Source: Oscillatoriales cyanobacterium (GTDB lineage Bacteria > Cyanobacteriota > Cyanobacteriia > Cyanobacteriales > Laspinemataceae). Taken from it: a DNA stretch of 45,567 nt. Below, piece by piece: positions 15,468 to 37,794 of the stretch. The notes beneath the pieces are model-generated. The model worked only from the letters and a program-made list of their open reading frames with translations. It was not told the origin of the DNA and did not search any database. The position numbers were made by a program, and so were the translations under genes. The stretch is from contig JAABRM010000058.1 in assembly GCA_011390955.1 (NCBI GenBank), positions 1-45,567 on the forward strand, written 5' to 3'. Position 1 is the first letter of the stretch. Each line of letters starts with the position of its first letter.

Positions 15468-16664
15468 ATGGCCACTAACGTCCTTGACCAAATCGATCCT
15501 AAGAAATTAGGCGAAATGCTACAACAGGCTAGAAAAAAATGCGGCATTACCCAAGCGAATGCGGCTCAAATCATCGATGCTTCACGCACTACAATGATCG
15601 CGATCGAAAAAGGGGAAAGACGACTCAAAGCAACAGAACTAATTAAACTAGCTCGTGCTTATGGGCAATCGGTCAGTGATTTTGTTCGTCCTACTCCAGT
15701 TGTTGAACCTTTTGCCGTTCAATTTCGGGCAGCTTTTCAACACAGCGAGCCAGAAAAAGAGGAAATCGTTGAGGTGATTCAACACTTTGAGCAACTATGC
15801 CGCAACTATCTGGAACTTGAAGAAATGATGGATGCACCATTACCAAAAAACTATCCTCGTGAATATGAGGTTGAGGGGATGCCGATCGCGCAAACTGCGG
15901 AAAGTATTGCTATTAGTGAACGTCAGCGTCTCGGTCTGGGAGATGGCCCGATTTCATTACTCCGAGATATTTTAGAACAAAATGTAGGGCTGCGGATTTT
16001 TTATATTAAAATGCCGGGAAAATATTCAGAAATGTATAACTATGATGCCAAGCTAGGGGGTTGCATTGCGATTAATGCGAATCACCCGGAAGAACGGCGC
16101 CGCTGGTCTTTAGCACATGGATATCTTCACTTTTTAGCTCATCGGAGAAAGTCTGTCCTTGATGAAGTTGAGATTGAATACCAAAGAAGACCCATGAGTG
16201 AAAAATTAGCTGAAGCTTTCCCCGCATATTTTTTAATGCCCACCAGTAGTTTGCTTCGGCAGTTTAATGAAATGTGTCAGTCACAAGGTAAATTTACTCC
16301 GACTAATTTATTTACCCTAGCTCATTATTATGGTGTATCCGTAGAAGCGCTAGTTCTGAGACTGGAAAATATGAAACTTCTGCCGTCTGGAACTTGGGAA
16401 AGATTGCGCGATCGCGGCTTAAAAGTTAGACAGGTGCAGCAAGAACTTGGCTTAGAAGCAATCGATCGCAGGGCTGATATGGTGCCAGTGCATTATCAGC
16501 ATCTAGCGATCGAAGCTTTGGATCAAGGAATTATTAGCGAGGGACGATTTGCTAAGTTATTGGGTTTAAACCGATTAGAATCTCGTGATATCGCCAATAA
16601 ATTAAGAGAGTATTCTAGTGGCATCACCGAAGAAACGACTCATTTAGACCTAAGAAAAGCCTAA
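15468..16664 (+). CDS. XRE regulator fused to ImmA/IrrE-like domain, degenerate protease motif
   Basis: Protein of 398 residues. Residues 13-75 form an XRE helix-turn-helix (LGEMLQQARKKCGITQANAAQIIDASRTT). The middle and C-terminal parts are ImmA/IrrE-like: CIAINANHPEERRRWSLAH, then EAFPAYFLMP. The zinc-protease signature should be HExxH, but residues 217-221 read HGYLH, so the catalytic glutamate is glycine while both histidines remain. The domain may bind zinc without cleaving, or act by other chemistry. It lies 19 bp upstream of a PIN-domain gene and is probably its antitoxin and autorepressor. Confidence 0.8.
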   Translation: MATNVLDQIDPKKLGEMLQQARKKCGITQANAAQIIDASRTTMIAIEKGERRLKATELIKLARAYGQSVSDFVRPTPVVEPFAVQFRAAFQHSEPEKEEIVEVIQHFEQLCRNYLELEEMMDAPLPKNYPREYEVEGMPIAQTAESIAISERQRLGLGDGPISLLRDILEQNVGLRIFYIKMPGKYSEMYNYDAKLGGCIAINANHPEERRRWSLAHGYLHFLAHRRKSVLDEVEIEYQRRPMSEKLAEAFPAYFLMPTSSLLRQFNEMCQSQGKFTPTNLFTLAHYYGVSVEALVLRLENMKLLPSGTWERLRDRGLKVRQVQQELGLEAIDRRADMVPVHYQHLAIEALDQGIISEGRFAKLLGLNRLESRDIANKLREYSSGITEETTHLDLRKA

Positions 16665-16683
16665 GATTGGGAGATTATTAACG

Positions 16684-17229
16684 ATGATTAATCACTCCCA
16701 TCTCTTATTAGATGCTTGTTGTCTCCTAAATGTTTTTGCATCGGGTCAGGGTCTAAATATCTTAAAAGCTTTACCCGTTCAGAATGTAGTGACTCAAATT
16801 GTCCGTGATGATGAATTAAAAACCCTTCAAACCTTAGATGATGGCAAAAATGAAGGCGCCGCACAATTTCAATTAGCACTTTCCCAAGGTTTCTTAACAG
16901 TGGTGGATTTTGCCACTGAAACAGAAGCAGAATTATTTGTCAATTACGCCGTAATTCTTGATGATGGTGAAGCGGCAACTTGTGCGATCGCCTGCCAAAG
17001 AAATTGGGCGATCGCGACTGACGACAAAAAAGCCATATCATTCGCCAAAAAAGAAGCGCCCCAGATTCAAATCATCTCCACATTAGCCTTAGTCAAATAT
17101 TGGGCAGACGAAATAAATCCCGATCTAAACCAGTTACGTTTAGCCCTTGAGTCAATTAGAGTAAAAAGTAAATACATCCCCAACAAAAGCCACCCTTTAT
17201 ATAGCTGGTGGAAAAAGCAGATCGACTGA
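16684..17229 (+). CDS. PIN-domain-like toxin partner
   Basis: Protein of 181 residues with the PIN-fold outline: an N-terminal aspartate in HLLLDACCLLNVFASG, an acidic central segment ILDDGEAATCAIACQ, and late aspartates in WAIATDDKKAISFAKK. It is probably a metal-dependent nuclease toxin. It directly follows the XRE-ImmA gene and likely shares its promoter. This is the third PIN-type module within about 11 kb, and its sequence is clearly different from the other two. Confidence 0.75.
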   Translation: MINHSHLLLDACCLLNVFASGQGLNILKALPVQNVVTQIVRDDELKTLQTLDDGKNEGAAQFQLALSQGFLTVVDFATETEAELFVNYAVILDDGEAATCAIACQRNWAIATDDKKAISFAKKEAPQIQIISTLALVKYWADEINPDLNQLRLALESIRVKSKYIPNKSHPLYSWWKKQID

Positions 17230-17421: not shown

Positions 17422-18237
17422 TTATTTTTGTCTAGTTTGTGCTACAATGCGATCGAAGTACCAGTTAATCCCTGGGCCGAGAATACTGTGCAGTCGATTG
17501 AGTAAAGAAATTTCTAACCCAGGCGCGATCGCGAATACATTTTTCTCGATTCCTTTGACGATTTCTTGGGCAACTCCTGCCGCTGTCCACATATCTGCGG
17601 TGGCGGTAATTCGTTTAGTTTCTTCGGGCTTTGTTTTATTTTCGGCTACTAATTGGGGAGTATCCGTATCGGGGGGATAAACAATCGAAACATTCACCCC
17701 ATAAACCTTCATTTCCCCGCGCAAAGATTCCGCCAATCCCCGTAGGGCAAATTTAGTCGGGGAATAGGTAGTATAACCATAAATACCAATTAATCCTGCC
17801 CCAGAAGACACTAAAACAATATGCCCTTTTTTCCGGGCCAACATTTGCGGGACAACGGCCCGAATTGCGTAAAGGGTGCCAAAATAATTAATGGCCATTG
17901 TTTGCTCGAAAATTGCGATCGCCTGGTCTTGAAAATATCCGGGCTGGGCAATTCCCGCCGAAGTAATTAAATAGTCAACCGGGCCATTTTGTGCGATCGC
18001 TTTTTGAATAGCTGCTTCTATTTCTTCGCGGTGAGAAACATCAGCGGCGATCGTAAAAACTTGCTGATTATTATTAACGCGGGCGGCTTCAATTTCCGTT
18101 TTAGCTTCAGCCAAAATGCTTTCAGTCCGGGCAATAATGGAAATATTTGCCCCTTTGCTGGCTAAAAGTTTGGCGGTGGCTTTACCAATGCCACTAGAAC
18201 CACCTGTAATAATAGCGTGTGAATTATTAAAATTCAT
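17422..18237 (-). CDS. SDR reductase resembling 3-ketodihydrosphingosine reductase
   Basis: Short-chain dehydrogenase of 271 residues. The cofactor motif TGGSSGIG is at residues 11-18, the catalytic serine near 144-145, and YSPTK gives Tyr158 and Lys162. The stretch YPPDTDTPQLVAENKTKPEE closely follows the PPDTDTP...EN.TKP..T signature of eukaryotic 3-ketosphinganine reductase (KDSR), which is unusual among bacterial SDRs. INYFGTLYAIRAV and LRGLAESLRGEM also fit. The predicted reaction is NADPH-dependent reduction of a 3-keto sphingoid-type amine. A hydrophobic patch near the C-terminus (ISLLNRLHSILGPGINWYF) may touch the membrane. It lies downstream of an SPT-like gene, which supports the assignment. 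The start codon directly abuts a TTGTTGG-type array. Confidence 0.82.
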   Translation of the reverse strand: MNFNNSHAIITGGSSGIGKATAKLLASKGANISIIARTESILAEAKTEIEAARVNNNQQVFTIAADVSHREEIEAAIQKAIAQNGPVDYLITSAGIAQPGYFQDQAIAIFEQTMAINYFGTLYAIRAVVPQMLARKKGHIVLVSSGAGLIGIYGYTTYSPTKFALRGLAESLRGEMKVYGVNVSIVYPPDTDTPQLVAENKTKPEETKRITATADMWTAAGVAQEIVKGIEKNVFAIAPGLEISLLNRLHSILGPGINWYFDRIVAQTRQK

Positions 18238-18420
18238 TGGTTATTGGTTGTTTGTTGTTTGTTGTTGGTTGTTGGTTGTTGGTTGTTGGGTAGGGATTCT
18301 TTGGTTGGGGCCGCCATCGGGGGAATAATTAACAATTAACAATTGATAATTGACAATTAAATATAATTATCAATTATCAATTATCAATTATCAATTATCA
18401 ATTATCAATTATCAATTACA
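18238..18420. repeat. STRR cluster between SDR and ACP-SPT genes
   Basis: A TTGTTGG-type array (18240-18290) ends in TAGGGATTCTTTGGTTGGGG. A spacer and then an AATTATC array (about 18325-18419) with both orientations (AATTGAT/ATCAATT) follow. The TTGTTGGGTAGGGATTCT junction is repeated near 27360 and, inverted, near 33840-33865, so the composite itself is a dispersed unit. Confidence 0.85.
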
Positions 18421-18432
18421 CCCTCTTAAAAT

Positions 18433-20103
18433 TTAAGCGCTCATCACGTCGGAACCTTCAAGTTTTGCCCATTCTTGCACCAGGATATCCACAGTGGAAC
18501 GGATTTGCTCCTCCGTATGGTTGCAGGTGACAAAGAAACGCAAGCGGGCGGTGCCTTCCGGGACACTAGGGGCGCCCAAGGGTTGCACGTTAATGCCGCG
18601 ATCGAATAAGGCTTGAGACAACTTAATGCATTTATAAGTCTCGCCAACGATAATCGGAATCACGGGAGAATCGGCACTCATGCCGGTGTTGAGTCCCCGT
18701 TGCCGTGCTAAATCTAAGAAAAGTTTGGCGCGTTGCTGGAGAATGGCGACTCGCTGGGGTTCCGCTTGCAGGACTTGTAAAGCAGCTAAGGCAGCCGCCG
18801 TATTTGCCGGGGACATTCCCACACTATAAACAAAGCCTGGGGCGGTGTATTTCAAGTATTCGACCAGTTCTTTGCAACCGGCAATATAGCCGCCACAACT
18901 GGCAAAGGATTTGCTGAACGTTCCCATCCATAAATCCACGTCTGCTGGATTAACGTTAAACATTTCCCCAATCCCCCGACCATGCTCTCCCAAAACCCCG
19001 ATAGAATGGGCTTCATCGACCATGAGTAAGGCTTTGTAGCGTTTTTTCAGTTCAATGAATTTGGGCAGTTCGGGGATATCTCCGTCGGTGCTGTAAACTC
19101 CTTCGATGACGATTAAGACCCGGTTGTAACGGTGGCGGCGATCGCCCAGAATAGACTCCAGGGCATCGTAGTCATTGTGGGGAAAAGCGATCGCTGTGGC
19201 ACCGGAGAGAATACAACCCTGCATAATGCTGTTGTGGCTTAGGGAGTCGTGAACAATCAGGTCATTTTTGCCAAACAGATGGCCAATAGTGCTGACATTG
19301 GTGCTGTGACCGCCAATGTAAACCATGCTATCCTCAGCGCCGACAAATTCCGCCACGGCTTTTTCCAGTTCTTGGTGTAAAGGTTTTTCCCCGGAAGCAA
19401 TGCGGCTGGCAGACACGGAAGTGCCATAGCGATCGATCGCCTCTTTTGCCGCTTGAGAAACCATCGGATCGCCGGACATTCCCACATAGTTATAGGTGGA
19501 ATAATTAATCAGTTCGCGACCACCAATCACCGTAGTGTCATTACAGACTCGTTCTTGGACGTTAAAATAGGGATTTCTCAGCCCTAACTGGGTAATTTGG
19601 TCTAACTGACCTTTGAGTTTGCGATATTCAGGGAAGCGATCGAACCGATAATATTGTTCGGGAACTTCATCACCGGATTCATCCATACTGGTAGACCCAT
19701 TGGCGATCGGGCTGTCTGCCGCTGCCCCATTTGCGTCATCGGGAGTCTGGAGTCTATCGGACTCATTGGCCAAATACAAGGCCAAAGCGTGAATATTAGG
19801 ATAATCCCACAGCAGAGTTGGTTCGAGCCTGCGTCCGAGGAAATTTTCCAGATTCCCGGATAGGTTAACCGCCTCGATAGAATTCAGACCATATATGGTG
19901 AAATCTTTATGAATGTCGATCTCGGCAACGGGCAGATCCAAGCGTTCGGCAAGCTGATTCACTAACCAGTTGCTAATCGCGGTGGAATCATGGACTTCAT
20001 CCGATGACTTTGGGGCAGATTTTGCTCCCTTGGCTACGAGGTTAGCTGACTTCGTAGCTTTTTTCTGAATGTTTTGCTGGCTTAACTGGTTTAACAATTT
20101 CAT
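18433..20103 (-). CDS. ACP-fused serine palmitoyltransferase-like alpha-oxoamine synthase
   Basis: Protein of 556 residues. Residues about 40-115 are an acyl carrier domain with the phosphopantetheine serine at Ser75 in YGLNSIEAV. A linker covers about 116-160. The PLP-dependent alpha-oxoamine synthase domain runs from about 165: histidine-containing HDSLSHNSIMQG, Asp363 and His366 in VDEAHSIG, and the PLP lysine Lys398 in GTFSKSFASCGG. GTFxKSFxxxGG is closer to serine palmitoyltransferase than to KBL or BioF. Predicted reaction: decarboxylative condensation of an amino acid with an acyl chain carried by its own ACP, giving a 3-keto amine. A strong AGAGGAG ribosome site precedes the ATG. The amino acid could be serine, alanine, glycine or cysteate. 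Confidence 0.88.
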   Translation of the reverse strand: MKLLNQLSQQNIQKKATKSANLVAKGAKSAPKSSDEVHDSTAISNWLVNQLAERLDLPVAEIDIHKDFTIYGLNSIEAVNLSGNLENFLGRRLEPTLLWDYPNIHALALYLANESDRLQTPDDANGAAADSPIANGSTSMDESGDEVPEQYYRFDRFPEYRKLKGQLDQITQLGLRNPYFNVQERVCNDTTVIGGRELINYSTYNYVGMSGDPMVSQAAKEAIDRYGTSVSASRIASGEKPLHQELEKAVAEFVGAEDSMVYIGGHSTNVSTIGHLFGKNDLIVHDSLSHNSIMQGCILSGATAIAFPHNDYDALESILGDRRHRYNRVLIVIEGVYSTDGDIPELPKFIELKKRYKALLMVDEAHSIGVLGEHGRGIGEMFNVNPADVDLWMGTFSKSFASCGGYIAGCKELVEYLKYTAPGFVYSVGMSPANTAAALAALQVLQAEPQRVAILQQRAKLFLDLARQRGLNTGMSADSPVIPIIVGETYKCIKLSQALFDRGINVQPLGAPSVPEGTARLRFFVTCNHTEEQIRSTVDILVQEWAKLEGSDVMSA

Positions 20104-20805
20104 GGTTCACTCCTCTGTTCAATCGACTCAAAAGGTCGGTGGTAGCCCGAATTTACGCGGGCGATCGCGTTCGGCGGGGGGTACACAATGACCTAGCATG
20201 GGATAGCGTTGGCGAAGCCTACAGTCGGCGATCGCTTCTTTAATTTAGCGATAGATTTCCAATCTGGGCGATGCCGCTTGACTCAGTTCCAGAGACGGGC
20301 GTCGCCCAGACTGAAAATAGCATGATGGTTATTTTGCCATGAAGACATAAAAGTAGCGAGGTTTACCCAGAAAATATACTCACTACTTTGGGGTCAGCCC
20401 AATAACTCAACTCAGGCCAGACCAAAAAGTCAGCCATAGACTATAGACATAAAAAAAGACTGGCAAGTTCAGATCGTCTTTGTCAAGACTCAGGCTTGAG
20501 TAGCCACTTTACGGAAATTTTATGTTTATTTTATTTTCTTATAACATTTGTTGTGGCGTTTTATGGTATATCGGGGGGCGATCGGCGGGGGAGCGGGGGG
20601 GCAGAGGAGCAGGGGGGCAGGGAGGCAGAGGAGCGGGGGAGCGGGGGAGCAGAGGGGCAGAGGGGCAGAGGAGCAGGGAGGCAGAGGAGCGGGGGAGCGG
20701 GGGAGCAGAGGGGCAGAGGGGCAGAGGAGCGGGGAAATCAATTATCAATTATCAATTATCAATTATCAATTATTTCCCCCGCCCCAAAAACCCCACACCC
20801 TACGG
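20104..20805. other. Intergenic region with G-rich and AATTATC tandem arrays
   Basis: This 700-bp gap upstream of the ACP-SPT gene contains no supported gene. About 20240-20325 holds an imperfect palindrome, TCTGGGCGATGCC against GGGCGTCGCCCAGA. From about 20571 to 20733 runs an 8-mer array of GCGGGGGA/GCAGAGGG type, followed by an AATTATC array to about 20774. All six-frame readings of the G-rich array are low-complexity artefacts. The size of the gap suggests that the ACP-SPT gene has its own promoter here. Confidence 0.7.
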
Positions 20806-22584
20806 CTAGGGCTTTGATGAATTAGCTAATTCAAAGGGAACGATAGAAAACATTTTGTTTTCTGTATGTAATTTTACCAAGCGATCGCCCATATTTTCCC
20901 AGTAAGACTCTGGGGCAGACTCTAAAGAAGGCTGGATTTTTTCTAGCAACCGGGTTAAACAAATTACCAGCCATTCCCCTTGGGCAAAAAATGAGTCTAA
21001 AGTCTTGCGATTATGCAGCCACATTTGCAAGCAAGCCACCGCTGTATGTAAAACACAATAAGTTTTGGCTAAATCAAATAGTTGGCTAGATTTGCTATAT
21101 TTGGGAGTATAAGCAATTCCTTGCTCGACTAAGAATTGATTTTGAATATGAATTAGTTGGTTGAGTAGATTAGTTAAATTCATAATTCTATCTACTACTT
21201 GAGATTCTGCTTCAGAATTAATCGGCAGGTCGGCTAAATCTGCTTCAGCTAATTCAATTCCTTGTAAAATATCATCACGGCCTCGATTATACATTTCTAG
21301 CAGATTCGGATCGAAATCTGGCAGAGGTTTTTCTAAGTTAAAAATGGTGGCAATTTGTTCGCGAATCCCCGGTGTTTCGCTAATATTGGTTTCAATGTGA
21401 TAGGTAGCGAGTTGCTGAATTTGTAAGGCGATCGCGTGTAAATTGACGGCGGTCGAACCGTCAAATACGCTGACAATTGAATGGTCTCTAAATATTTTCT
21501 GGAAAATGCCATACCAATGTTCTTCTCGTAAGTAATACCGCGCCCCTAACACTGCGGATATGCGCTGAATTAATTGCTCAACGGTGGTGGGAACAAAGTA
21601 TTTAATAATCGATGAAAATAGACTCATTTGATTCGTAGCCACATGAAGCGATCGCACGGCGGCAAAAGAGACACATTCGCATAATAAAATATCCACAAAA
21701 GCTTCAACTAAAGTTTGCCTTGCGTGAGGAATATCCCAAACGGTGCCGCCATAAATTTGCCGGGAAAAGACAAAATCCAAAGTAACTCTTAAAGCTGTAT
21801 CTGCTTGAGCTAATGAAGGGGCAGCCCCAGCGTGTAAAGTGCGGGTAACTTGCAAAGCTTTCAGAATAATTTCTAAACCGGATCCGGGAGTAGAAATTAA
21901 AGCATTGGCAGGCAAAAAGCTGTTTTGAAAATTGACCCCACTAATATTCGCCCCGCGCACTCCATGAGTTTTAATTTTATCTAGATGGCTGAAAGATTTG
22001 GGGTCTAACTTATCTTTTTCCACTAAAAAAACGGAAAAGCCACGAGGCCCACCTTTGGGATTTGTGCGAGTAAATACCGTTAAAGCCGTAGACAGAGTGC
22101 CATTGCCAATCAGCCATTTTTCGCCGGATAATAAATAGCCATGTTCCACCGTTTCTACAGCGGTTTCACTACTTAAAAGATCGCTGCCGTGATTTTTTTC
22201 CGTTAAGCCAAAGGAAATTTTTTCCTGATTTTTAATCCGGTCAGCAATTTTTTGTTTCTGCTCATCACTACCGGCGATCCAAACCGGGGTGGCACCTAAA
22301 TAAGTCACTCCATGAGCGATCGCCACGGTCAGGTCACGACGGGCGATCGTGCGGGAAATTGCCAGAACTTCTTCAAAAGATTTGAGTTTTCCCCCGTAAG
22401 CAGCGGGAATATAATACAAATCTACATTCCAATCGGACAAAAGCTGGCAAATATCTTCTGGATAGGCATCTTGCTCATCCAATTCCATACAATGCTGGAA
22501 AGAAAATAAATTCTCTGGATTCAACGGATCGCCCAGATAGAATTCCAGTGCTTGAGCGGTGTGGTACTGTGTGAGCAAAGACAT
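20806..22584 (-). CDS. Acyl-CoA dehydrogenase family protein
   Basis: Flavoprotein of about 592 residues, longer than simple acyl-CoA dehydrogenases because of a C-terminal helical extension from about 430. The core shows KISFGLTEKNHGSDL (FAD/substrate region), GYLLSGEKWLIGNGT, and a C-terminal FAD-binding part with FDGSTAVNLHAIALQ. It probably introduces an alpha-beta double bond into an acyl chain, here perhaps an acyl-ACP, since its neighbours encode a fatty acyl-AMP ligase and an ACP fusion. The frame is open to 22716, overlapping the ligase gene, but homology begins at MSLLTQYHT, so the ATG at 22584 is preferred, 37 bp after the ligase stop. Confidence 0.85.
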   Translation of the reverse strand: MSLLTQYHTAQALEFYLGDPLNPENLFSFQHCMELDEQDAYPEDICQLLSDWNVDLYYIPAAYGGKLKSFEEVLAISRTIARRDLTVAIAHGVTYLGATPVWIAGSDEQKQKIADRIKNQEKISFGLTEKNHGSDLLSSETAVETVEHGYLLSGEKWLIGNGTLSTALTVFTRTNPKGGPRGFSVFLVEKDKLDPKSFSHLDKIKTHGVRGANISGVNFQNSFLPANALISTPGSGLEIILKALQVTRTLHAGAAPSLAQADTALRVTLDFVFSRQIYGGTVWDIPHARQTLVEAFVDILLCECVSFAAVRSLHVATNQMSLFSSIIKYFVPTTVEQLIQRISAVLGARYYLREEHWYGIFQKIFRDHSIVSVFDGSTAVNLHAIALQIQQLATYHIETNISETPGIREQIATIFNLEKPLPDFDPNLLEMYNRGRDDILQGIELAEADLADLPINSEAESQVVDRIMNLTNLLNQLIHIQNQFLVEQGIAYTPKYSKSSQLFDLAKTYCVLHTAVACLQMWLHNRKTLDSFFAQGEWLVICLTRLLEKIQPSLESAPESYWENMGDRLVKLHTENKMFSIVPFELANSSKP

Positions 22585-22621
22585 GAAAAAACCCCCAGTT
22601 TTATGATCCGGAAATAGCGAC

Positions 22622-24409
22622 TTATTCCCCCACAATATCCAAGGTGCCAGCCAGAAAATTTGCCCGACAAGCATGGCGCTGGATTTTTCCACTAGACGTT
22701 TTGGGAATGCTGCCATACTTAATCAGGAATGCCTGATAAACCTGGAGATCGTGATGGGATGAAACCGATCGCCGAATTGATTGTATCACCGCCTTTGCCT
22801 CCCAGGAATGATGCTGAGAAGGATCTTCTGATGAGAGGGCAGCTTGTCGCTTGCGTTGTCGATAACGCCGTTCCACTTCTGCCACAACGATCAACCGCTC
22901 TTCCCCATCAATTTCCACAGAAAACGCCGCCGAACAAGTGGGGCGAATGGCTGGGTGACTCTGTTCTACGGTGCGTTCAATATCTTGAGGATAATGGTTA
23001 TGACCGTTAACAATAATCAGGTCTTTGAGTCGTCCAGTGACATATAACTCGTCATTGTCCAAAAACCCCAAATCCCCAGTTCGCAGAAATGGGCCTTCCC
23101 CCGTATCCGCTAAATAAGCACCAAAAGCGTGACGGCTTTCTTCGGTTTTATTCCAGTAACCTTGGGCAACGCTAGGACCTTCGATCCAGATTTCTCCCAC
23201 TTCTCCGGCAGTACATCGGGTCAGGGTTTCTGGATGGGCGATCGCGATTTGGTGACGGGGAATTTGCCGACCGCAACCGACTAAGGTCCGAGTGGTTAAC
23301 TCTTTATTTGATTCTGGGGATACGGGGACAACCCAATTTTTCTCTAATGGCTCCGCTGCCACCGTTTGATAAATCGGTAGGGCAGTTTTTGCGCCCCCGG
23401 AAACAATTAAAGTAGTTTCCGCCATGCCATAACAAGGATAAAACGCTTCGCGGCGAAACCCGCATTCGGCAAAAGTGGCGGCAAATTGTTCTAAAGTTTC
23501 GGGAATAATCGGTTCTGCCCCGTTAAAAGCTACCTCCCAAGAACTCAGATCGAGGGTTTGTTTCTGTTCTGGGGTAATTTTATGAATACAGAGTTGGTAG
23601 GCAAAGTTTGGCCCGCCACTGGTGGTGGCTTGATGCCGGGACACCGCTTGCAGCCAACGAAATGGACTCTGAAGAAAGACTAATGGGGACATTAAGACCA
23701 CGGGAAAACCGGCATAAAGCGGTTGCAAGATGCCACCGATTAAGCCCATATCGTGATAGGGGGGCAGCCAAATCACGCCGCGACTTTGGGGGGAATGCCC
23801 AAAACAATGAGCGATCGCCGCTAAATTCTGGAGTAAATTTTGGTGAGAGATCATCACTCCCTTGGGAGTCGCCGTCGAACCGGAGGTATATTGCAGAAAA
23901 GCGAGGTGACGACTTTCTACCTTGGGTTCTTGCCAAGCGTTTGCTTGACTGAGATCGATTTGATCCGTCGCCAACCATCCTAAAGTTTCCAATTCCGGGG
24001 CATCCGCTACTCTTTGGGCCAAACTGGAAAAAATCGATGTGGTGGTCAGGGCAACCGCCGCCTGTGCATCGGTCAAGATTGACTGAATTCGGGATAGGGA
24101 ACGATTTGGCCGTGGCGGATATGCGGGGACTGCCACCACTCCGGCAAATAGACAGCCAAAAAAGGCGCTAATATATTCGATTCCCGGTTGGTAAAGCAAT
24201 AAAGCCCGGTCTCCCGGTTGACAAAACTGTTGCAATTGGCTGGCGATCGCTTGGGCTTGTTGTTCTAATTCTTGATAAGTCAGATCGACGGAAACCGTTT
24301 CTCCGTCAACCAAGAAACGATAGGCTTGTTTGTCCGGTTGATGCCATGCCCTATATCGGAGTAGATCGACTAAAGTGCTTGTTTTCAGTGGAGTTTCTAG
24401 AAAATTCAT
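22622..24409 (-). CDS. Fatty acyl-AMP ligase (FAAL)
   Basis: Adenylate-forming enzyme of 595 residues. The P-loop is LQYTSGSTATPKG near residue 170, then LPPYHDMGLIGGILQPLYAG and FNGAEPI, a pattern of FAALs rather than acyl-CoA ligases. YGMAETTLIVSGG and RTGDLGFLDNDELYVTGRLKD complete the adenylation core. The terminal PKTSSGKIQRHACR holds the catalytic lysine. FAALs activate fatty acids as acyl-AMP and pass them to an ACP instead of CoA. Its likely acceptor is the ACP domain of the SPT-like protein encoded in the same cluster. It is probably first in an operon with the dehydrogenase gene. Confidence 0.92.
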   Translation of the reverse strand: MNFLETPLKTSTLVDLLRYRAWHQPDKQAYRFLVDGETVSVDLTYQELEQQAQAIASQLQQFCQPGDRALLLYQPGIEYISAFFGCLFAGVVAVPAYPPRPNRSLSRIQSILTDAQAAVALTTTSIFSSLAQRVADAPELETLGWLATDQIDLSQANAWQEPKVESRHLAFLQYTSGSTATPKGVMISHQNLLQNLAAIAHCFGHSPQSRGVIWLPPYHDMGLIGGILQPLYAGFPVVLMSPLVFLQSPFRWLQAVSRHQATTSGGPNFAYQLCIHKITPEQKQTLDLSSWEVAFNGAEPIIPETLEQFAATFAECGFRREAFYPCYGMAETTLIVSGGAKTALPIYQTVAAEPLEKNWVVPVSPESNKELTTRTLVGCGRQIPRHQIAIAHPETLTRCTAGEVGEIWIEGPSVAQGYWNKTEESRHAFGAYLADTGEGPFLRTGDLGFLDNDELYVTGRLKDLIIVNGHNHYPQDIERTVEQSHPAIRPTCSAAFSVEIDGEERLIVVAEVERRYRQRKRQAALSSEDPSQHHSWEAKAVIQSIRRSVSSHHDLQVYQAFLIKYGSIPKTSSGKIQRHACRANFLAGTLDIVGE

Positions 24410-25926: not shown

Positions 25927-27303
25927 TTAACCCGTGGTAATTTTTTCTCCGCGAATGGATAAATCTAATAACTCAATTGGATGATAAAGGGGCATAGTTT
26001 TCCCCTGTAACTCCAAATGTTTCTTAATTTGTAAAGAACAACCCGGATTAGGTGAAGCAATTAATTTAGCCCCAGTGTTCACCAAATTCTCAGCTTTTTG
26101 CTGTCCCAATTCGTCGGCAACTTCCGGCTGTAACATATTATAAACTCCCGCACTACCACAACATAAGGCAGCATCGATCGGTTCGCGCAATGTCACCCCC
26201 GGAATTTTTTTAAGCAGTTGACGCGGTTGCACCGATATTTTCTGTCCGTGTAATAAATGACAAGCATCTTGATAAACGATGGGTAATTCCCCATCAGTCA
26301 AGGGAGACAGTTTGCTAGTTAAGCCTACTTCCACGAGAAATTCTTGCACATCTCGGACTTGGTTAGAAAACTGTTTCGCCTTTTCCCGATAGTCTGGATC
26401 GTCTTGTAAAATATGACCATATTCTTTCAAAGTATGGCCACAACCTGCCGCATTAATAATGATAAAATCGACGTTAGTATCGGCAAAACTATCAATCATT
26501 TGACGGGCGATCGCCTGGGCTTGATTTTCTTGTCCTTGGTGCGCGGGTAAAGCCGCACAGCAGCCTTGAGATTTAGGAATCACCACCTCACAACCATTCG
26601 CCGTTAACACTCGCGCTGTAGCTTCATTTACTGGAGAGAAAAAGAGCCGTTGTACGCAGCCCAAAATCATCCCCACCCGATAGCGTTTTTCCCCTTTTGC
26701 CGGAATTAATTCTGGCAATTCTTGGGTTAAAGACTTGAGATTTACTTCTGGTAAAATAGACTCCATTGCCGCCAATTGGGGCGAGATTTTTTTCATAATC
26801 CCGCTAGACCTGACCAGCTTTTGACCCCCAAACTTTTGATATAGATAAAGGGGAAATAATAAGGGTTTTAGGCGGTTAGGATAAGGAAATAGATTAAAAA
26901 TCAGATTCCGCAACAATTTATCCGGCAGCGATCGCGCGACATTTCGTTCCACCTGGGGACGAGTTGCCGCAATTAAATCACCGTATTGTACCCCAGAAGG
27001 ACAAGTGCTGACACAGGCTAAACAGCCCAAACAACTATCAAAATGTTGAGAAGTAATCGGATTTAATTCCGCTTCTCCTTGATTAATCGCATCCATCAGA
27101 TAAATGCGACCACGGGGCGAGTCCATTTCTTTGCCCAACACCCGATAACTGGGACAAGTAGATAAACAAAATCCACAATGAACGCAAGTATCAATTAAAC
27201 TCGGATCCGGCGGATGTTTCGCATCAAATCCGTTTTTTTGACTTACTTTATTTTCGGCATTTTCGGCATTTTCGGCGATCGTTCTATTTTCTGATGTTTG
27301 CAT
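25927..27303 (-). CDS. glcF: Glycolate dehydrogenase iron-sulfur subunit GlcF
   Basis: Protein of 458 residues with two ferredoxin-type 4Fe-4S clusters: Cys40, 43, 46 and 50 in CVHCGFCLSTCP, and Cys91, 94, 97 and 101 in CLGCLACVSTCP. Two CCG-type domains follow (GCCAALPAHQG, NAAGCGHTLKEYG, DACHLLHGQ, CCGSAG). It passes electrons from glycolate oxidation in the photorespiratory pathway. GlcE is encoded just upstream on the same strand; GlcD is not in the window. A TTGTTGG array lies immediately before the ATG, with no clear ribosome binding site. Residues 10-19 (ENAENAEN) come from a 9-bp tandem repeat. Confidence 0.92.
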   Translation of the reverse strand: MQTSENRTIAENAENAENKVSQKNGFDAKHPPDPSLIDTCVHCGFCLSTCPSYRVLGKEMDSPRGRIYLMDAINQGEAELNPITSQHFDSCLGCLACVSTCPSGVQYGDLIAATRPQVERNVARSLPDKLLRNLIFNLFPYPNRLKPLLFPLYLYQKFGGQKLVRSSGIMKKISPQLAAMESILPEVNLKSLTQELPELIPAKGEKRYRVGMILGCVQRLFFSPVNEATARVLTANGCEVVIPKSQGCCAALPAHQGQENQAQAIARQMIDSFADTNVDFIIINAAGCGHTLKEYGHILQDDPDYREKAKQFSNQVRDVQEFLVEVGLTSKLSPLTDGELPIVYQDACHLLHGQKISVQPRQLLKKIPGVTLREPIDAALCCGSAGVYNMLQPEVADELGQQKAENLVNTGAKLIASPNPGCSLQIKKHLELQGKTMPLYHPIELLDLSIRGEKITTG

Positions 27304-27424
27304 ATTTTATTTGTTGGTTGTTGGTTGTTTTTGGTTGTTGGTTGATGGTTGGTGGTTGTTTGTTGTTGGGTAGGGATTCTATGGTTGGTGGTTGACAATT
27401 ATCAATTATCAATTATCAATTGAT
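27304..27424. repeat. STRR cluster between glcE and glcF
   Basis: A TTGTTGG-type array covers about 27310-27366, then the TAGGGATTCTATGGTTGG junction, then an AATTATC array at 27398-27424. The last array runs into the glcE 3' end and supplies its final codons and stop. The same composite (7-mer array plus TAGGGATTCT) is at 18240-18310. Confidence 0.85.
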
Positions 27425-28702
27425 AAATCGATTTGGACTAAAAATATTCTGCGGGTCGAACTGATGTTTAATCCCTTGCATCAGTGGGAGAGCATTCCCA
27501 GAATATCCCCAAATATCAATTTTTTGTTTCAATTCTTGGGAAGCCGCTAAAATTGTCAAAAATCCGGCATTGTTTTCACAAATTTTTCTCAAATTTAATA
27601 ATCCAGATTTAGCAGCAGATTCCTCCGATAACCGTAAACGACCTAAGCCGCTATTGGCATGAATTACCCCCAACCCTTGAACTTTTTCGAGAGTGGCTAC
27701 CGCTGCCGTCGGTCTTACTCCTATTTTGCATAACAATGACTCATTTGATTCATTTTCTTCAATGATTGTTTTTAATCGTTGCCATAAAGTAGCTTCCGAG
27801 TCGTTGCTATAGGAAATTCCTTTTAAGCCTAATTTTTCTCCTACGGCTAATAATCGTTCAGATTGTTCGGCGACACTTTCTGGGACATTAGAAAATTTGG
27901 CCAATAATCCCATACCTCTACCTATATCTAAGGTTTCGACAATTGAGGCGGAAAGAATATCTAAGGCAACGGGGGTTAAAGCGGAAGAACGCACCGTTTG
28001 ACTGGCTTGATTAATGGCAGCAGAGTCACCAGTTAATAAAACGGTTTGGGACGCGGCTTGCAGGGGATAGAGGCGAAATGTCACTTGGGAAATAATCCCT
28101 AATGTGCCGAAGGATCCGGTTAATAATTTCATCAAATCATATCCGGCTACATTTTTGACGACTCTTCCCCCTGCTTTGGCAAGCTGACCATCAGCCCGGA
28201 CAAAAGAAATACCGAGTAATTGGTCGCGCACGCTGTTATAACGCTGTCGCAGGGATCCGGTGTCAGCCGTAGCCACAATACCCCCAATAGTGGCGCGATC
28301 GCTGTAACTGGGATCGAGGGCGAGAAATTGCCCCGTAGCCGCTAAAATTTTTTGCAGTTCGGCATATTTCATCCCTGCTTGTACCGTCACCGTTAAGTCC
28401 CCACTGGCATGATCGATTAGTTGATTCATCCGTGCGGTACTAACTACTATATTGATATCTTTGGGAATACCGCCCCAATGCAGTTTGCTGCCGGAACCAC
28501 AGGGCAGGATCCGCCATTGGTTTTGTCTGGCAAGGCTGACAACCGCCCCCAGTTGTTCTGGGGTTTGGGGATAGACAATGCAGCTTGGTGGCGGATCCAG
28601 GAATAATTTTTCTGGTTGCCAAGGGCTGACAGCCCCTACACCGGCAATGTTTTCCAGTTGTTGAGTCAGTTCTTGAGTAAGTTGTTGAGCGATCGCATTC
28701 AT
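27416..28702 (-). CDS. glcE: Glycolate dehydrogenase FAD-binding subunit GlcE
   Basis: FAD-binding protein of about 428 residues of the FAD_binding_4 family. It shows VVSLARQNQWRILPCGSGSKLHWGG, then LALDPSYSDRATIGGIVATADTGSLRQRYN, VRADGQLAKAGGRVVKNVAGYD and GSFGTLGIISQVTF. It works with GlcD and GlcF in glycolate oxidation. The frame opens at TTG 28714; I use the ATG at 28702 (MNAIAQQLTQEL). It lies about 110 bp upstream of glcF, from which it is separated by tandem repeats. Confidence 0.9.
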   Translation of the reverse strand: MNAIAQQLTQELTQQLENIAGVGAVSPWQPEKLFLDPPPSCIVYPQTPEQLGAVVSLARQNQWRILPCGSGSKLHWGGIPKDINIVVSTARMNQLIDHASGDLTVTVQAGMKYAELQKILAATGQFLALDPSYSDRATIGGIVATADTGSLRQRYNSVRDQLLGISFVRADGQLAKAGGRVVKNVAGYDLMKLLTGSFGTLGIISQVTFRLYPLQAASQTVLLTGDSAAINQASQTVRSSALTPVALDILSASIVETLDIGRGMGLLAKFSNVPESVAEQSERLLAVGEKLGLKGISYSNDSEATLWQRLKTIIEENESNESLLCKIGVRPTAAVATLEKVQGLGVIHANSGLGRLRLSEESAAKSGLLNLRKICENNAGFLTILAASQELKQKIDIWGYSGNALPLMQGIKHQFDPQNIFSPNRFIN

Positions 28703-28861
28703 CTGATTTATCAATTTGTGGTAAGTTAACGATTCAATATTTTTTGGGGGCGGTCAAGGGGGGGTGAAATCATTTTAAGTCTAATTCAGGGAATATTGGG
28801 GCATAAAAATCCCTTACACTGCGTACACCCGGAGGTATGAAAAATTTTTATCGGAGTGGCA

Positions 28862-34421: not shown

Positions 34422-35555
34422 TTAGCCGTGGGCTTTAGCTGTGGGCAATATCAGCATGGCATCCCCAAAGGAATAAAAACGATACTGGTGTGCGATCGCT
34501 TCTTGATATAAGTCCAACAAACGCTGGCGCCCTACCATTGCGCTAACCAGCATCAACAAACTGGATTTAGGCAAATGAAAATTCGTAATCAAGCCATCCA
34601 CTACCCGCCACCGATAACCCGGATAAATAAATAAATCCGTCTTGCCACAAAACGGTTGTAACTCTCCTCTCGTGGCGGCCCCTTCCAGCGATCGCACCGC
34701 CGTCGTCCCCACCGCAATAACTCGTCCCCCTTGCGCCTTAGTTTCCCGAATTTTGGCCACCGTTGACTCTGGCACCAGCGCCCACTCAGAATGCATAAGA
34801 TGTTCCGTCACATTCTCCACTTCCACCGGGCGAAACGTCCCCACGCCCACATTTAAAGTCACAAAAGCTCGTTGGATCCCCTGTTGCTCTAATCGCGTCA
34901 GTAACTCTTCCGTAAAATGAAGCCCAGCAGTGGGGGCCGCCACCGAACCGGGTTGTTCCGCATAAACCGTTTGATATTGAGACGGTAAAGCCGAAGATTT
35001 GGTGATGTAGGGAGGCAAGGGTACATGACCATATATCTGCAAAACTTGCGCCAAAGTTGCGCCGGTTGGGAGAAATAACTCGATAAATCGCCCCCCGGTT
35101 GACGGATCTGTCCCTAGGACTTTAGCCGTAAATGGACTGGGAATTTCTGCACTTTGGAAAGCTTCAGATTGTAAAGCTTCAGATGGTAAAGCTTCTGATG
35201 CTGGCGCAAATTCGATCTCTGCCCCTGCTTTTAAGCGTCTTCCGGGTTTAACCAATGCTAACCAAATATTCGGCTGGGATTCTTCCAACAACAAGACCTC
35301 AACCGGGGCGCCCGTGGATTTGCGCCCGTATAGACGCGCTTGAATCACGCGAGTATTATTTAAAACCAGCAAATCCCCTGGTTGGAGCAATTCCGGTAAC
35401 TCGCGGAAAATATGGTGACTATGTTCTGTGGGATTTTTCACCACCAATAAGCGAGACGTATCTCTCGGCACTACTGGATTCTGAGCAATTCTCTCCTCTG
35501 GGAGTTCATAGTCATAAGCGTGTAAGGTTTGGTCAAAATTTTGACTATCAGTCAT
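34422..35555 (-). CDS. queA: S-adenosylmethionine:tRNA ribosyltransferase-isomerase
   Basis: Transfers and rearranges the ribosyl group of SAM onto preQ1 in tRNA to give epoxyqueuosine, at tRNAs with GUN anticodons. The 377-residue protein has [76 protein letters not shown] and [18 protein letters not shown], all conserved. Residues about 119-135 are a tandem [15 protein letters not shown] repeat encoded by 15-bp DNA units at 35158-35202. This lengthens a surface loop relative to typical QueA. Confidence 0.95.
35158..35202. repeat. 15-bp tandem repeat within queA
   Basis: Three in-frame units on the plus strand: AAAGCTTCAGATTGT (35158-35172), AAAGCTTCAGATGGT (35173-35187) and AAAGCTTCTGATGCT (35188-35202). 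They encode a five-residue repeat on the minus strand. Confidence 0.85.
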
Positions 35556-36028
35556 TCTCAGTCCTCATTGCCCGATCGTTAAAAATGAAAGATTAAAATT
35601 TGGTAAGTCATACTGTTCAAGCATTTATCTTAAAACTAATTAGCAATTTAAATATATAAAGGCTTAAAAATGAGGGAATATTAAAAAAATATAAAGTTTT
35701 AATAAAATATTGGGCAGGGGGGTGAATTTCCCAGCCCGGAAAAAAGTCAGAATCACCGTAGAAGCGATCGCTTGGATGGCTTTGTGGTCAGCCAAACTAG
35801 AAGATTTCCCAGGGATCGGTCCACGAGATAAAAATAACCAGGCGAAGTCTCGTTCCCAGGCTGGAGCCTGGGAACGAGGGCGGGTAGGGGGGGAAATTTG
35901 GGTAAATTCCCCCAGATGATAGTAGGGATAATCCCGATGATCGCGGGGTCAAAAAATTAAGAAAATATTAATTGTAGCGTTGTCTTTGCCATGAGCAATG
36001 TTGCATCCGCAGCGCTACGCGAACGAAT
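35556..36028. other. Gap with a perfect CTCGTTCCCAGGCT palindrome
   Basis: AT-rich from 35620 to 35710. At 35849-35878 CTCGTTCCCAGGCT and AGCCTGGGAACGAG are exact inverses around GG, a common cyanobacterial dispersed palindrome. A 69-codon frame at 35710-35919 runs through the palindrome and is not supported as a gene. Confidence 0.6.
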
Positions 36029-36418
36029 ATGGAATACATTTATTTCTTCCCCAATGGCAGTCTCTCCATTCGAGTAGTTGAATATCTCCGCAGTGCCATA
36101 CACCTGCCAGTTGCCTTTGTGACAGTGATTCATCTAATTGACGGTTGGATTGTGCGAATTAAAATGAACCGTTGCCTGGATCCGCAGCCAGCAGGGGACT
36201 TTCTCGCGGTAATGAATGAGTTGGGATTTCCCTATCAACCAGGGATCCGTTTGCAAATGGCACTCTGGAGTTTGGAAACGGGACAGTCACCGATTGATGT
36301 GATGCGTCGGTATCAGGTGACGATCGTCTCTCACGGAGGTGCTGATGTTCAAGAAATCGAGCAATTTCGCGAACAATTTGTCAAGGGTTTGGGATATTGC
36401 CCAGAAACCTTGACTTAA
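36029..36418 (+). CDS. Conserved hypothetical protein (129 aa)
   Basis: I do not recognise a family with a known role. The sequence starts MEYIYFFPNGSLSIRVVEYLRSAIHLP and continues DGWIVRIKMNRCLDPQPAGDFLAVMNELGFPYQP. The composition is normal, with no membrane segment and no signal peptide. The C-terminal part (TGQSPIDVMRRYQVTIVSHG) is predicted alpha/beta. Its independence from repeats, its codon use and its good ATG support it as a real gene. It lies convergent with yraN. Confidence 0.6.
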   Translation: MEYIYFFPNGSLSIRVVEYLRSAIHLPVAFVTVIHLIDGWIVRIKMNRCLDPQPAGDFLAVMNELGFPYQPGIRLQMALWSLETGQSPIDVMRRYQVTIVSHGGADVQEIEQFREQFVKGLGYCPETLT

Positions 36419-36471
36419 TTAGGGTTAATTCGGGTTAATTATTTTTAACTGTTATGCAACCCCTGAATCAA

Positions 36472-37101
36472 CTACCGGATTTCAGAGTCGAAAGCGCCAG
36501 CAATATACTGGCGTAAGGTGAGTTGATATTCGCCCAGGGAATTTTTGATGAATATAGGTTGTCCCAATGTAATTGGAGGTGAAAAGCTGGTTGCCCATAT
36601 TGTTTCTTCGGCTGCCGTTCGCATTAGCGTGTCGGAGGCAATTCGCCTCGGATACTTCTGATAACTAACTAAAGCTACATCAAATTGGCAGGGACAATTA
36701 CTCAAATCCGGGCGATCGCTCAAAAATATCTCAGCAGTTTGTAAAAGTTTGGCTTGCTTTTGCGGGGGAATACTCAACAGTCCTCCGGCATCCAAGCTTT
36801 GATTTTTGCGTGTTTTCACTTCCACAAATGCGATCCGTTGGTAAGGATGCTCAGGTAATTGTCCCCCAGGGATTTCGCCAGCAATAATATCAATTTCACC
36901 CCAACGACAACGCCAACGCCTCGCGATAATTGCCCAGCCACGATCCTGTAACCATCGGGCGACTAAATTTTCTCCCAAAATGCCGATAGTTGATTTTTCC
37001 TGGGATTTTTGCGGGTGAGAATCCGGTGATGGTAGTGGCATTTTCGGTGAATTAACTCTTAAAGAGGCGATCGCTGGTAGGATCACCATAGAACCAATCA
37101 T
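36472..37101 (-). CDS. YraN/UPF0102 family nuclease-fold protein
   Basis: Protein of up to 209 residues. The core is LGENLVARWLQDRGWAIIARRW, WGEIDIIAGE and IAFVEVKTRKNQ, the restriction-endonuclease-like pattern with acidic (E, D) and ExK residues of UPF0102. Family members are putative nucleases linked to DNA processing, with function unproven. The N-terminus is long: starts at 37101 or 37089 are possible, and ATG 37041 (MPLPSPDSHPQ) would be closer to the usual length. No ribosome site settles this. Confidence 0.82.
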   Translation of the reverse strand: MIGSMVILPAIASLRVNSPKMPLPSPDSHPQKSQEKSTIGILGENLVARWLQDRGWAIIARRWRCRWGEIDIIAGEIPGGQLPEHPYQRIAFVEVKTRKNQSLDAGGLLSIPPQKQAKLLQTAEIFLSDRPDLSNCPCQFDVALVSYQKYPRRIASDTLMRTAAEETIWATSFSPPITLGQPIFIKNSLGEYQLTLRQYIAGAFDSEIR

Positions 37102-37130
37102 AGCGGCGATTAGCCCCTAAGCGCGATAGC

Positions 37131-37200
37131 GGGCAAAGCATTCGCGCTGAAATTTTATTGCAGAATCGTCAAGATTGTTACGCGAATGCTTTGCCCCTAC
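37131..37200. repeat. GGGCAAAGCATTCGCG palindrome element
   Basis: Arms GGGCAAAGCATTCGCG (37131-37146) and CGCGAATGCTTTGCCC (37181-37196) match exactly, and the right arm continues CCTAC. It is close in sequence and length to the element inside the lipoprotein gene at 791-857, so I treat them as one family. Confidence 0.8.
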
Positions 37201-37269
37201 GATCCTGAACCTGGTTTACATTGCCGAAATCGATTGTAGATATTATTTTCTCATCAAACTTGTCATACC

Positions 37270-37794
37270 ATGAGTCACCAGGAAGATATTGCGGAAAAGT
37301 TTATTACCTTAGTATGTGCTGCGGTAGTGTTCATAACTACTTTAGGCGCCCTGACTACCCTCAACTTTGCCATTGCTGTACCCGCGTGGGCGAATGACTA
37401 CAACCAAGAACAACTGGTTGGGGCTGATTTCTCTGGCCAAGATTTAAAAGACTCTTCCTTTACCAGAGCAAATCTGCGGATTGCCAATTTCAGTAACGCC
37501 GATTTGCGCGGGGTCAGCTTTTTTTCCGCCAACTTGGAAGATGCGAACTTGGAAGGGGCTAACCTGAGCCAAGCCACTTTAGATAAAGCTCGATTCATGG
37601 GCGCCAATTTAACTAATGCGATTTTAGAAGGCGCTTATGCCTTTAATACTGGCTTTAGAGGCGCGATCGTCGATGGTGCCGATTTTACTGATGTATTTAT
37701 GCGCGATGATGCCCATGAAGTGCTGTGTGGTTTGGCGAAAGGCACCAACCCCGTGACGGGTCGCAATACTCGCGATACTCTATTTTGTGATTAA
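37270..37794 (+). CDS. Exported pentapeptide-repeat protein (thylakoid-lumen type)
   Basis: Protein of 174 residues. An N-terminal signal with a hydrophobic core ends at an AWA-ND cleavage site near residue 41, so the mature protein should be in the thylakoid lumen or periplasm. Pentapeptide repeats (A(D/N)FXX/ANLXX) cover about 48-145. The C-terminal region CGLAKGTNPVTGRNTRDTLFC has two cysteines suited to a disulfide, a pattern seen in cyanobacterial lumenal pentapeptide proteins such as relatives of plant TL17-type proteins. Function is unknown. Confidence 0.85.
   Translation: MSHQEDIAEKFITLVCAAVVFITTLGALTTLNFAIAVPAWANDYNQEQLVGADFSGQDLKDSSFTRANLRIANFSNADLRGVSFFSANLEDANLEGANLSQATLDKARFMGANLTNAILEGAYAFNTGFRGAIVDGADFTDVFMRDDAHEVLCGLAKGTNPVTGRNTRDTLFCD

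Follow-up and report, generated by a model that had tools for sequence, protein, structure and literature searches.

A putative CoA-independent route to sphingoid-type long-chain bases encoded by a four-gene set in an Oscillatoriales cyanobacterium

The synthesis of sphingoid bases from carrier-bound acyl chains has been described in Pseudomonas and in Rhodobacteria. In Pseudomonas fluorescens MYb115 the PfSgaAB(C) system uses a monomodular iterative polyketide synthase (PKS) to feed SgaB, a proven serine palmitoyltransferase (SPT) that yields 3-ketosphinganines almost only from L-serine, and a KDSR-like short-chain dehydrogenase/reductase (SDR) is proposed as part of the system (PMC12134224). 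In Caulobacter and other Rhodobacteria a dedicated acyl-ACP synthetase, AasR, and the acyl carrier protein (ACP) AcpR feed SPT, and this acyl-ACP route to 3-oxo-sphinganine is proven; Escherichia coli BL21(DE3) likewise carries an SPT, an AcpR and an AasR (PMC9386255). Here we analyse a stretch of 45,567 nucleotides from an Oscillatoriales cyanobacterium (contig JAABRM010000058.1 of assembly GCA_011390955.1; hereafter the window), in which a set of four minus-strand genes probably encodes the enzymes for making a sphingoid-type long-chain base independently of CoA. An earlier note, made from the sequence of this stretch, had described the set as a fatty acyl-AMP ligase (FAAL), an acyl-CoA dehydrogenase (ACAD), an ACP fused to an SPT-like enzyme, and an SDR resembling 3-ketosphinganine reductase. 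Open reading frames and Pfam domains confirm this description, the SPT-like enzyme being a member of the α-oxoamine synthase (AOS) family. The same note held that cyanobacteria are not generally considered sphingolipid producers. That view calls for some nuance. Ceramides are reported from Scytonema julianum and Moorea producens, though with no genetic basis reported for them, and Nostoc punctiforme, whose sole AOS is BioF-like, was found to make no unbranched sphingolipids (PMC8895605). According to that paper no sphingolipid enzyme had been characterised for cyanobacteria, its one tested candidate being BioF-like (PMC8895605), and cyanobacteria go unmentioned in the main text of PMC12134224.

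According to the pathway that we propose, the FAAL would, judging by its family, adenylate a free fatty acid with ATP and load the resulting acyl-AMP onto the ACP domain of the synthase. The ACAD would probably oxidise the ACP-bound chain near the thioester. The pyridoxal phosphate (PLP)-dependent AOS would then condense the chain with an amino acid, with loss of CO2 and release of a 3-keto base, and the SDR would reduce this base at its 3-keto group, yielding a 2-amino-1,3-diol. The amino acid is most likely L-serine, as suggested by the clade and layout shared with PfSgaAB-type loci. The sequences show what the genes are, by homology, that the module is conserved, to which clade the AOS belongs and that AOS and SDR co-occur. 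Each reaction, the serine substrate, the double bond discussed below and the later steps, including N-acylation, are inferred from sequence. The CoA-free order of loading, condensation and reduction had been put forward in the earlier note, and finds support in the gene fusion, gene order, co-occurrence and phylogeny described below.

The locus shares with PfSgaAB(C) an AOS that would be fed by a carrier protein, SPT activity being proven for SgaB (PMC12134224), and a KDSR-like SDR as the proposed reductase. The two differ in that the PKS of PfSgaAB builds the chain whereas the window FAAL would load a ready-made fatty acid, there being no PKS in the window, and in that the window set has a fusion of ACP and AOS and includes an ACAD as well. 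The AasR-AcpR-SPT route is, by its description, alike in using a free fatty acid, a dedicated ligase and a dedicated ACP to feed the synthase, and differs in that AcpR and AasR are separate and there is no ACAD (PMC9386255). By sequence, the closest solved structures to the synthase are the SPT of S. multivorum (3a2b/8guh, 237 bits) and plant LCB2a (7yjo, 233 bits), which keep the same catalytic residues and differ in having no fused ACP and in falling into separate clades. No paper on a FAAL-fed AOS module was found among those listed in the literature searched, which took in few subscription journals and no preprints. The sphingoid-base reading is mostly supported, and we regard the module as a variant, fed by FAAL and ACP, of the known synthesis of long-chain bases from carrier-bound chains, new for cyanobacteria within that literature.

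The gene set is not a chance assembly, because its order recurs elsewhere. In a genome of the same family (G229; G, C and L numbers are our labels for genomes, contigs and loci) FAAL, ACAD, ACP, AOS and SDR follow one another (62-72% identity), the ACP and the AOS being encoded by two genes, and in G382 FAAL, ACAD, ACP and AOS form one protein of 1683 aa. We surveyed 386 cyanobacterial genomes for the synthase, and counts of AOS genomes are lower bounds as more distant fusions may exist. Among the matches listed, the AOS is present at 48-100% identity in 19 genomes, and at least three further ones (G211, G058, G083) have a FAAL-ACP-AOS fusion with a different AOS domain (32-36%) beside the same SDR family, making at least 22 of 386. 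The SDR family is bimodal, with 17 genomes at 54-100% identity (at least 314 bits) and the next match at 117 bits. An AOS is present in 16 of these 17, and the SDR in 16 of the 22 AOS genomes listed (Fisher p = 1.5e-22); counted by genus, both are found in 12 of 13 SDR genera and 12 of 17 AOS genera (p = 8e-13), neither p value being fully corrected for shared descent. Linkage alone does not explain the association, since the two genes are 1.65 Mb apart on one chromosome in G255 (Planktothrix rubescens PCC 7821, which has FAAL, ACP and AOS together at L060), about 20 kb apart in G011, and on different contigs in five draft genomes (G262, G157, G070, G320, G123). The co-conservation that the earlier note had proposed as a check is thus borne out for AOS and SDR.

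In three loci (L057, L217, L218) a FAAL-ACP-AOS fusion with an SPT-like AOS domain has as neighbours a member of the same SDR family, another FAAL and a glycosyltransferase, and here the synthase may have been swapped inside a module that was otherwise kept. The AOS domain of L057 was scored against the models, and those of L057 and L217 were placed in the careful tree described below; the AOS domain of the G211 fusion scores 447 bits with an SPT model and 361 with bioF.

The window AOS has Lys398, His290, Asp363, His366 and Arg522 aligned with their counterparts in SPT, KBL, BioF and ALAS, so that the PLP-binding Lys, the stacking His, the Asp and the substrate Arg of the family are all in conserved places. 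We placed it in a quick tree of 73 rows and in a careful tree that left out 23 of these as long branches or near-duplicates; reference sequences were labelled by curated models, and cysteate acyltransferase is absent from the rows. In the careful tree the window AOS belongs to a clade of 30 rows (support 100/99) that joins plant LCB2 (100/97) and then bacterial SPT (91/83). The quick tree likewise puts it nearest SPT/LCB2 (SH-aLRT 97), and the BioF, ALAS and KBL clades exclude it in both. An approximately unbiased (AU) test rejects its union with KBL (p = 0.005) but not that with BioF (see below). The AOS therefore likely stands on the SPT side, phylogeny by itself stopping short of proof. The window clade also contains PKS-paired AOS of Pseudomonas-type loci (L102, L105, L123 and others; 100/99), among them a P. 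putida pair in which KS-AT-DH-ER-KR-ACP is followed by an AOS, the layout of PfSgaAB. With L102 standing in for PfSgaB by layout, the window enzyme appears to be a carrier-fed AOS of the SgaB type.

The neighbourhoods of its relatives point the same way. We scanned named genomes for the best 80 of at least 574 AOS relatives (53-69% identity), a sample and no census, which came from cyanobacteria, many Planctomycetes, Bordetella, Pseudomonas, Streptomyces and others. A same-strand FAAL lies near the AOS at 12 of 18 cyanobacterial and 45 of the 80 named loci, a PKS ketosynthase at 7/18 and 25/80, and one or the other at 16/18 and 66/80; contig ends cut several of the loci with neither match. These counts were made by tblastn, ORF picking missing genes in high-GC loci; the two sets overlap (L060 is the place of L044, and L093 that of L053), and L057 and L058 were left out. 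FAAL and AOS matches share a single reading frame at 34 of the 80 loci, three of them with a FAAL fragment only. Among the Planctomycetes matches, FAAL and AOS are often fused into proteins of about 1130-1220 aa (L064-L066, L068, L081, L086 and others), which makes these organisms possible long-chain-base makers. Since a FAAL or PKS recurs beside it, the AOS family apparently receives its acyl chains from a carrier protein charged by one or the other. A B12-binding radical SAM protein with DUF4070, possibly a tailoring enzyme, was also seen beside the AOS at L039, L042, L044, L045, L046, L060 and L061, and a member of PF05118 (aspartyl/asparaginyl hydroxylase family) at L039 (by Pfam) and at L045, L046 and L054 (by homology).

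The window FAAL scores 442-461 bits with FAAL models and 180 with a general acyl-CoA ligase model, all below the curated cut-offs. Its best solved relative is 7r7g, labelled a polyketide synthase (660 bits), FadD32 follows at 339 bits, and FAAL structures are among its best solved relatives. At the other end of the gene set, the SDR has as its best solved relative the 3-ketodihydrosphingosine reductase TSC10 (8jat, 104 bits), and a profile of the family likewise puts TSC10 ahead of other SDRs (156 bits, the next solved relative at 137). The earlier note had read PPDTDTP and ENKTKP as the signature of 3-ketosphinganine reductase. Both are present, from residues 188 and 199, and human KDSR has both; TSC10 shares the second (ENxTKP), as ENRTKP, but lacks PPDTDTP. 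The window clade of the SDR tree (100/99) includes TSC10, though on a very long branch. It also includes an SDR of a member of the Bacteroidota (G415; L248, about 635-1501) that is 39% identical to the window SDR, carries PPDTHTP and ENQFKP, and is separated by only some 20 bp from the match of the SPT-like AOS that follows it, which scores 505 bits with the Bacteroidota SPT model (cut-off 640).

From its first ATG the reading frame of the ACAD spans 20806-22716 (636 aa), and homology with relatives begins only at residue 45, so the likely start is the ATG at 22584, 37 bp past the FAAL stop. Besides the window, the 386 genomes hold 17 long-ACAD relatives at 42-45% identity and that of G229 at 64%. 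An ACP match directly follows the ACAD in all eight of the 17 distant relatives that were inspected (L259-L266), which suggests that the substrate is bound to ACP and not to CoA, and an MBOAT match follows in three of the eight; these ACAD-ACP(-MBOAT) loci may represent a separate lipid module. Acyl adenylation, an ACP and an ACAD-like enzyme acting on a carrier-bound chain are also combined in tambjamine-type tailoring, which ends in reduction and transamination, unlike the window module with its AOS. The ACAD domain of the G382 fusion is of another subfamily, 22% identical to the window ACAD, and so the dehydrogenase would have entered the module twice or been replaced. As a marker of the module the long ACAD was rejected, since just 4 of its 19 carrier genomes (E up to 1e-60) are AOS genomes (p = 0.017). 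A 2-enoyl chain from the ACAD would put the double bond of the base at C4-C5, where sphingosine has it, and a 3-enoyl chain would give a 5-ene base; a 5-ene base is reported for mooreaside A from Moorea (PMC6272925). If the ACAD does act in this way, it would provide a separate path to unsaturation of the sphingosine type.

Further genes bear on what may follow the base. In G229 seven consecutive genes on one strand encode FAAL2, a PF04116 hydroxylase, FAAL1, ACAD, ACP, AOS and SDR, and the genome of the window has FAAL2 and the hydroxylase as divergent neighbours on contig C25 (about 34898-37583; L221:8899-11584), 58% and 60% identical, respectively, to those of G229. The best solved relative of the hydroxylase profile is SCS7, a ceramide fatty acid hydroxylase, a weak match (E 0.007). 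Glycosyltransferases are found near AOS relatives, of the family 28 type at L050 (homologues in L051, L067) and of the group-1 type at L044, L057 and L218 (homologues in L045, L054, L217). Taken with FAAL2 and the hydroxylase, they suggest that the end product is hydroxylated or glycosylated and perhaps resembles a ceramide. The hydroxylase itself was rejected as a marker of the module: above 185 bits it occurs in 32 of the 386 genomes, 9 with an AOS (p = 1.4e-5) and 23 without, and the test is biased because four AOS genomes supplied the sequences for the profile (A2). A more specific sequence of events is doubtful, though conceivable: the ACAD would make trans-2-enoyl-ACP, condensation with serine and reduction by the SDR would lead directly to sphingosine (4E), FAAL2 and the hydroxylase would supply a hydroxylated N-acyl chain, and glycosyltransferases would complete a cerebroside. 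Such a route, if true, would need no eukaryote-type dihydroceramide desaturase and would mean true de novo sphingolipids in some cyanobacteria.

Several results weigh against the long-chain-base pathway. The window AOS stays below the cut-offs of the NCBIfam SPT models (NF047600, the SPT-CFB model, 329 of 640 bits; NF047599, 295 of 500; NF047603, the alphaproteobacterial model and so a further difference from the Rhodobacteria, 247 of 670). Its top NCBIfam model is bioF, at 356 bits with a cut-off of 426, and the AU test lets its union with BioF stand (p = 0.155), so that of the two placements named in the earlier note as damaging, with KBL or with BioF, the trees speak against both and the test against KBL only. 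A fold search with the AOS model ranked the SPT of S. multivorum first (E 2e-34), with ThaOS (3e-34) and KBL (1e-33) so close behind that the fold does not discriminate. TSC10 was not among the 50 rows listed in the SDR fold search, which was uninformative; SDR folds are all alike. The SDRs near Pseudomonas-type PKS-AOS loci fall outside the window SDR clade, a difference from PfSgaAB, and the likeness to PfSgaB is one of layout, with the P. putida pair standing in for its sequence. The SDR family is missing from six of the 22 AOS genomes listed (G382, G235, G237, G251, G022, G002), and G118 is the sole SDR genome without an AOS among the matches listed. The window ACAD has Asp419, in VFDGST, instead of the catalytic Glu of acyl-CoA dehydrogenases, at a site that, reading by eye, we take to be that of Glu376 in medium-chain acyl-CoA dehydrogenase (MCAD); the same Asp is found in G229, and a Glu in the ACAD domain of G382. 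No N-acyltransferase was pinned down: a protein of the FemAB-like family, to which the bacterial ceramide synthase belongs, is present in the window's genome, but the control Synechococcus elongatus has one too, and its presence is therefore no evidence.

The same chemistry could use alanine or glycine and yield a 1-deoxysphingoid or aminoketone secondary metabolite. We regard this as unlikely, though the most serious of the other products considered: the patchy spread of the AOS and its PKS-fed relatives across many bacteria would fit secondary metabolism, and the residues that choose the substrate are unreadable from the sequence, but a KDSR-like SDR co-occurs with the AOS, and PfSgaB, similar in layout to pairs in the AOS clade, uses almost only L-serine (PMC12134224). 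A capnine or sulfonolipid-type base made from cysteate, one of the products named in the earlier note, is very improbable. Cysteate acyltransferases share the fold of the AOS, and one of them bears the name of an acyl-ACP transferase; the AOS nevertheless matches them at 162-165 bits, under the 237 for SPT, and the neighbourhood of the module showed no cysteate-pathway gene, no genome-wide search for such genes having been made. There is similarly little chance that the AOS serves biotin synthesis as a second BioF. The bioF model score and the AU result above favour this, and the AU test alone would let it stand; the only other AOS of the genome, however, is a BioF on C56 that lies inside the cyanobacterial BioF clade, both trees separate the two, and partners such as FAAL, ACP or PKS and a KDSR-like SDR are ill-suited to biotin synthesis. 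We accordingly rejected it and retain the long-chain-base pathway.

The coordinates of the four genes are given in the table. They are transcribed in the order FAAL, ACAD, ACP-AOS, SDR, with spacers of 37, 702 and 195 bp, and the unit ends at its flanks because the neighbours on both sides, an HTH/ImmA-IrrE protein with a 181-aa partner and a saccharopine-dehydrogenase-like gene, run on the plus strand. The two larger spacers contain copies (about 100-190 bp) of an interspersed repeat, at about 18236-18426 and 20590-20803, which makes up most of 117 matched places across the genome. The flanking genes at 15468-17229 encode the HTH and ImmA/IrrE-type protein and then the 181-aa protein, which has no Pfam match and is PIN-like by eye; the pair looks like a toxin-antitoxin system. 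Adjoining genes at 25927-28714 resemble the glycolate oxidase subunits GlcF and GlcE, both scoring under the model cut-offs.

Table. Positions in the window of the four genes and of the carrier domain.
Feature	Position	Strand	Remarks
FAAL, 595 aa	22622-24409	minus	AMP-binding and DIP2-like C-terminal domain (Pfam)
ACAD, 592 aa from likely start	20806-22584	minus	ORF open to 22716; three acyl-CoA-dehydrogenase domains (Pfam)
ACP-AOS fusion, 556 aa	18433-20103	minus	PP-binding, residues 46-111, and Aminotran_1_2, residues 197-539 (Pfam)
ACP domain, residues 46-111	19771-19968	minus	PF00550, E 1.5e-11; phosphopantetheine Ser75 in GLNS
SDR, 271 aa	17422-18237	minus	adh_short (Pfam); best solved relative TSC10

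The module would carry SPT-like, carrier-fed synthesis beyond chains built by a PKS, to free fatty acids as the starting material, both in cyanobacteria and in Planctomycetes. The survey points to the cyanobacteria that are worth testing, at least 22 of 386 genomes having the synthase and 16 of these also the SDR. As a concrete, testable gene set, the module would open a first genetic approach to the question of whether cyanobacteria make sphingolipids, and by what route.

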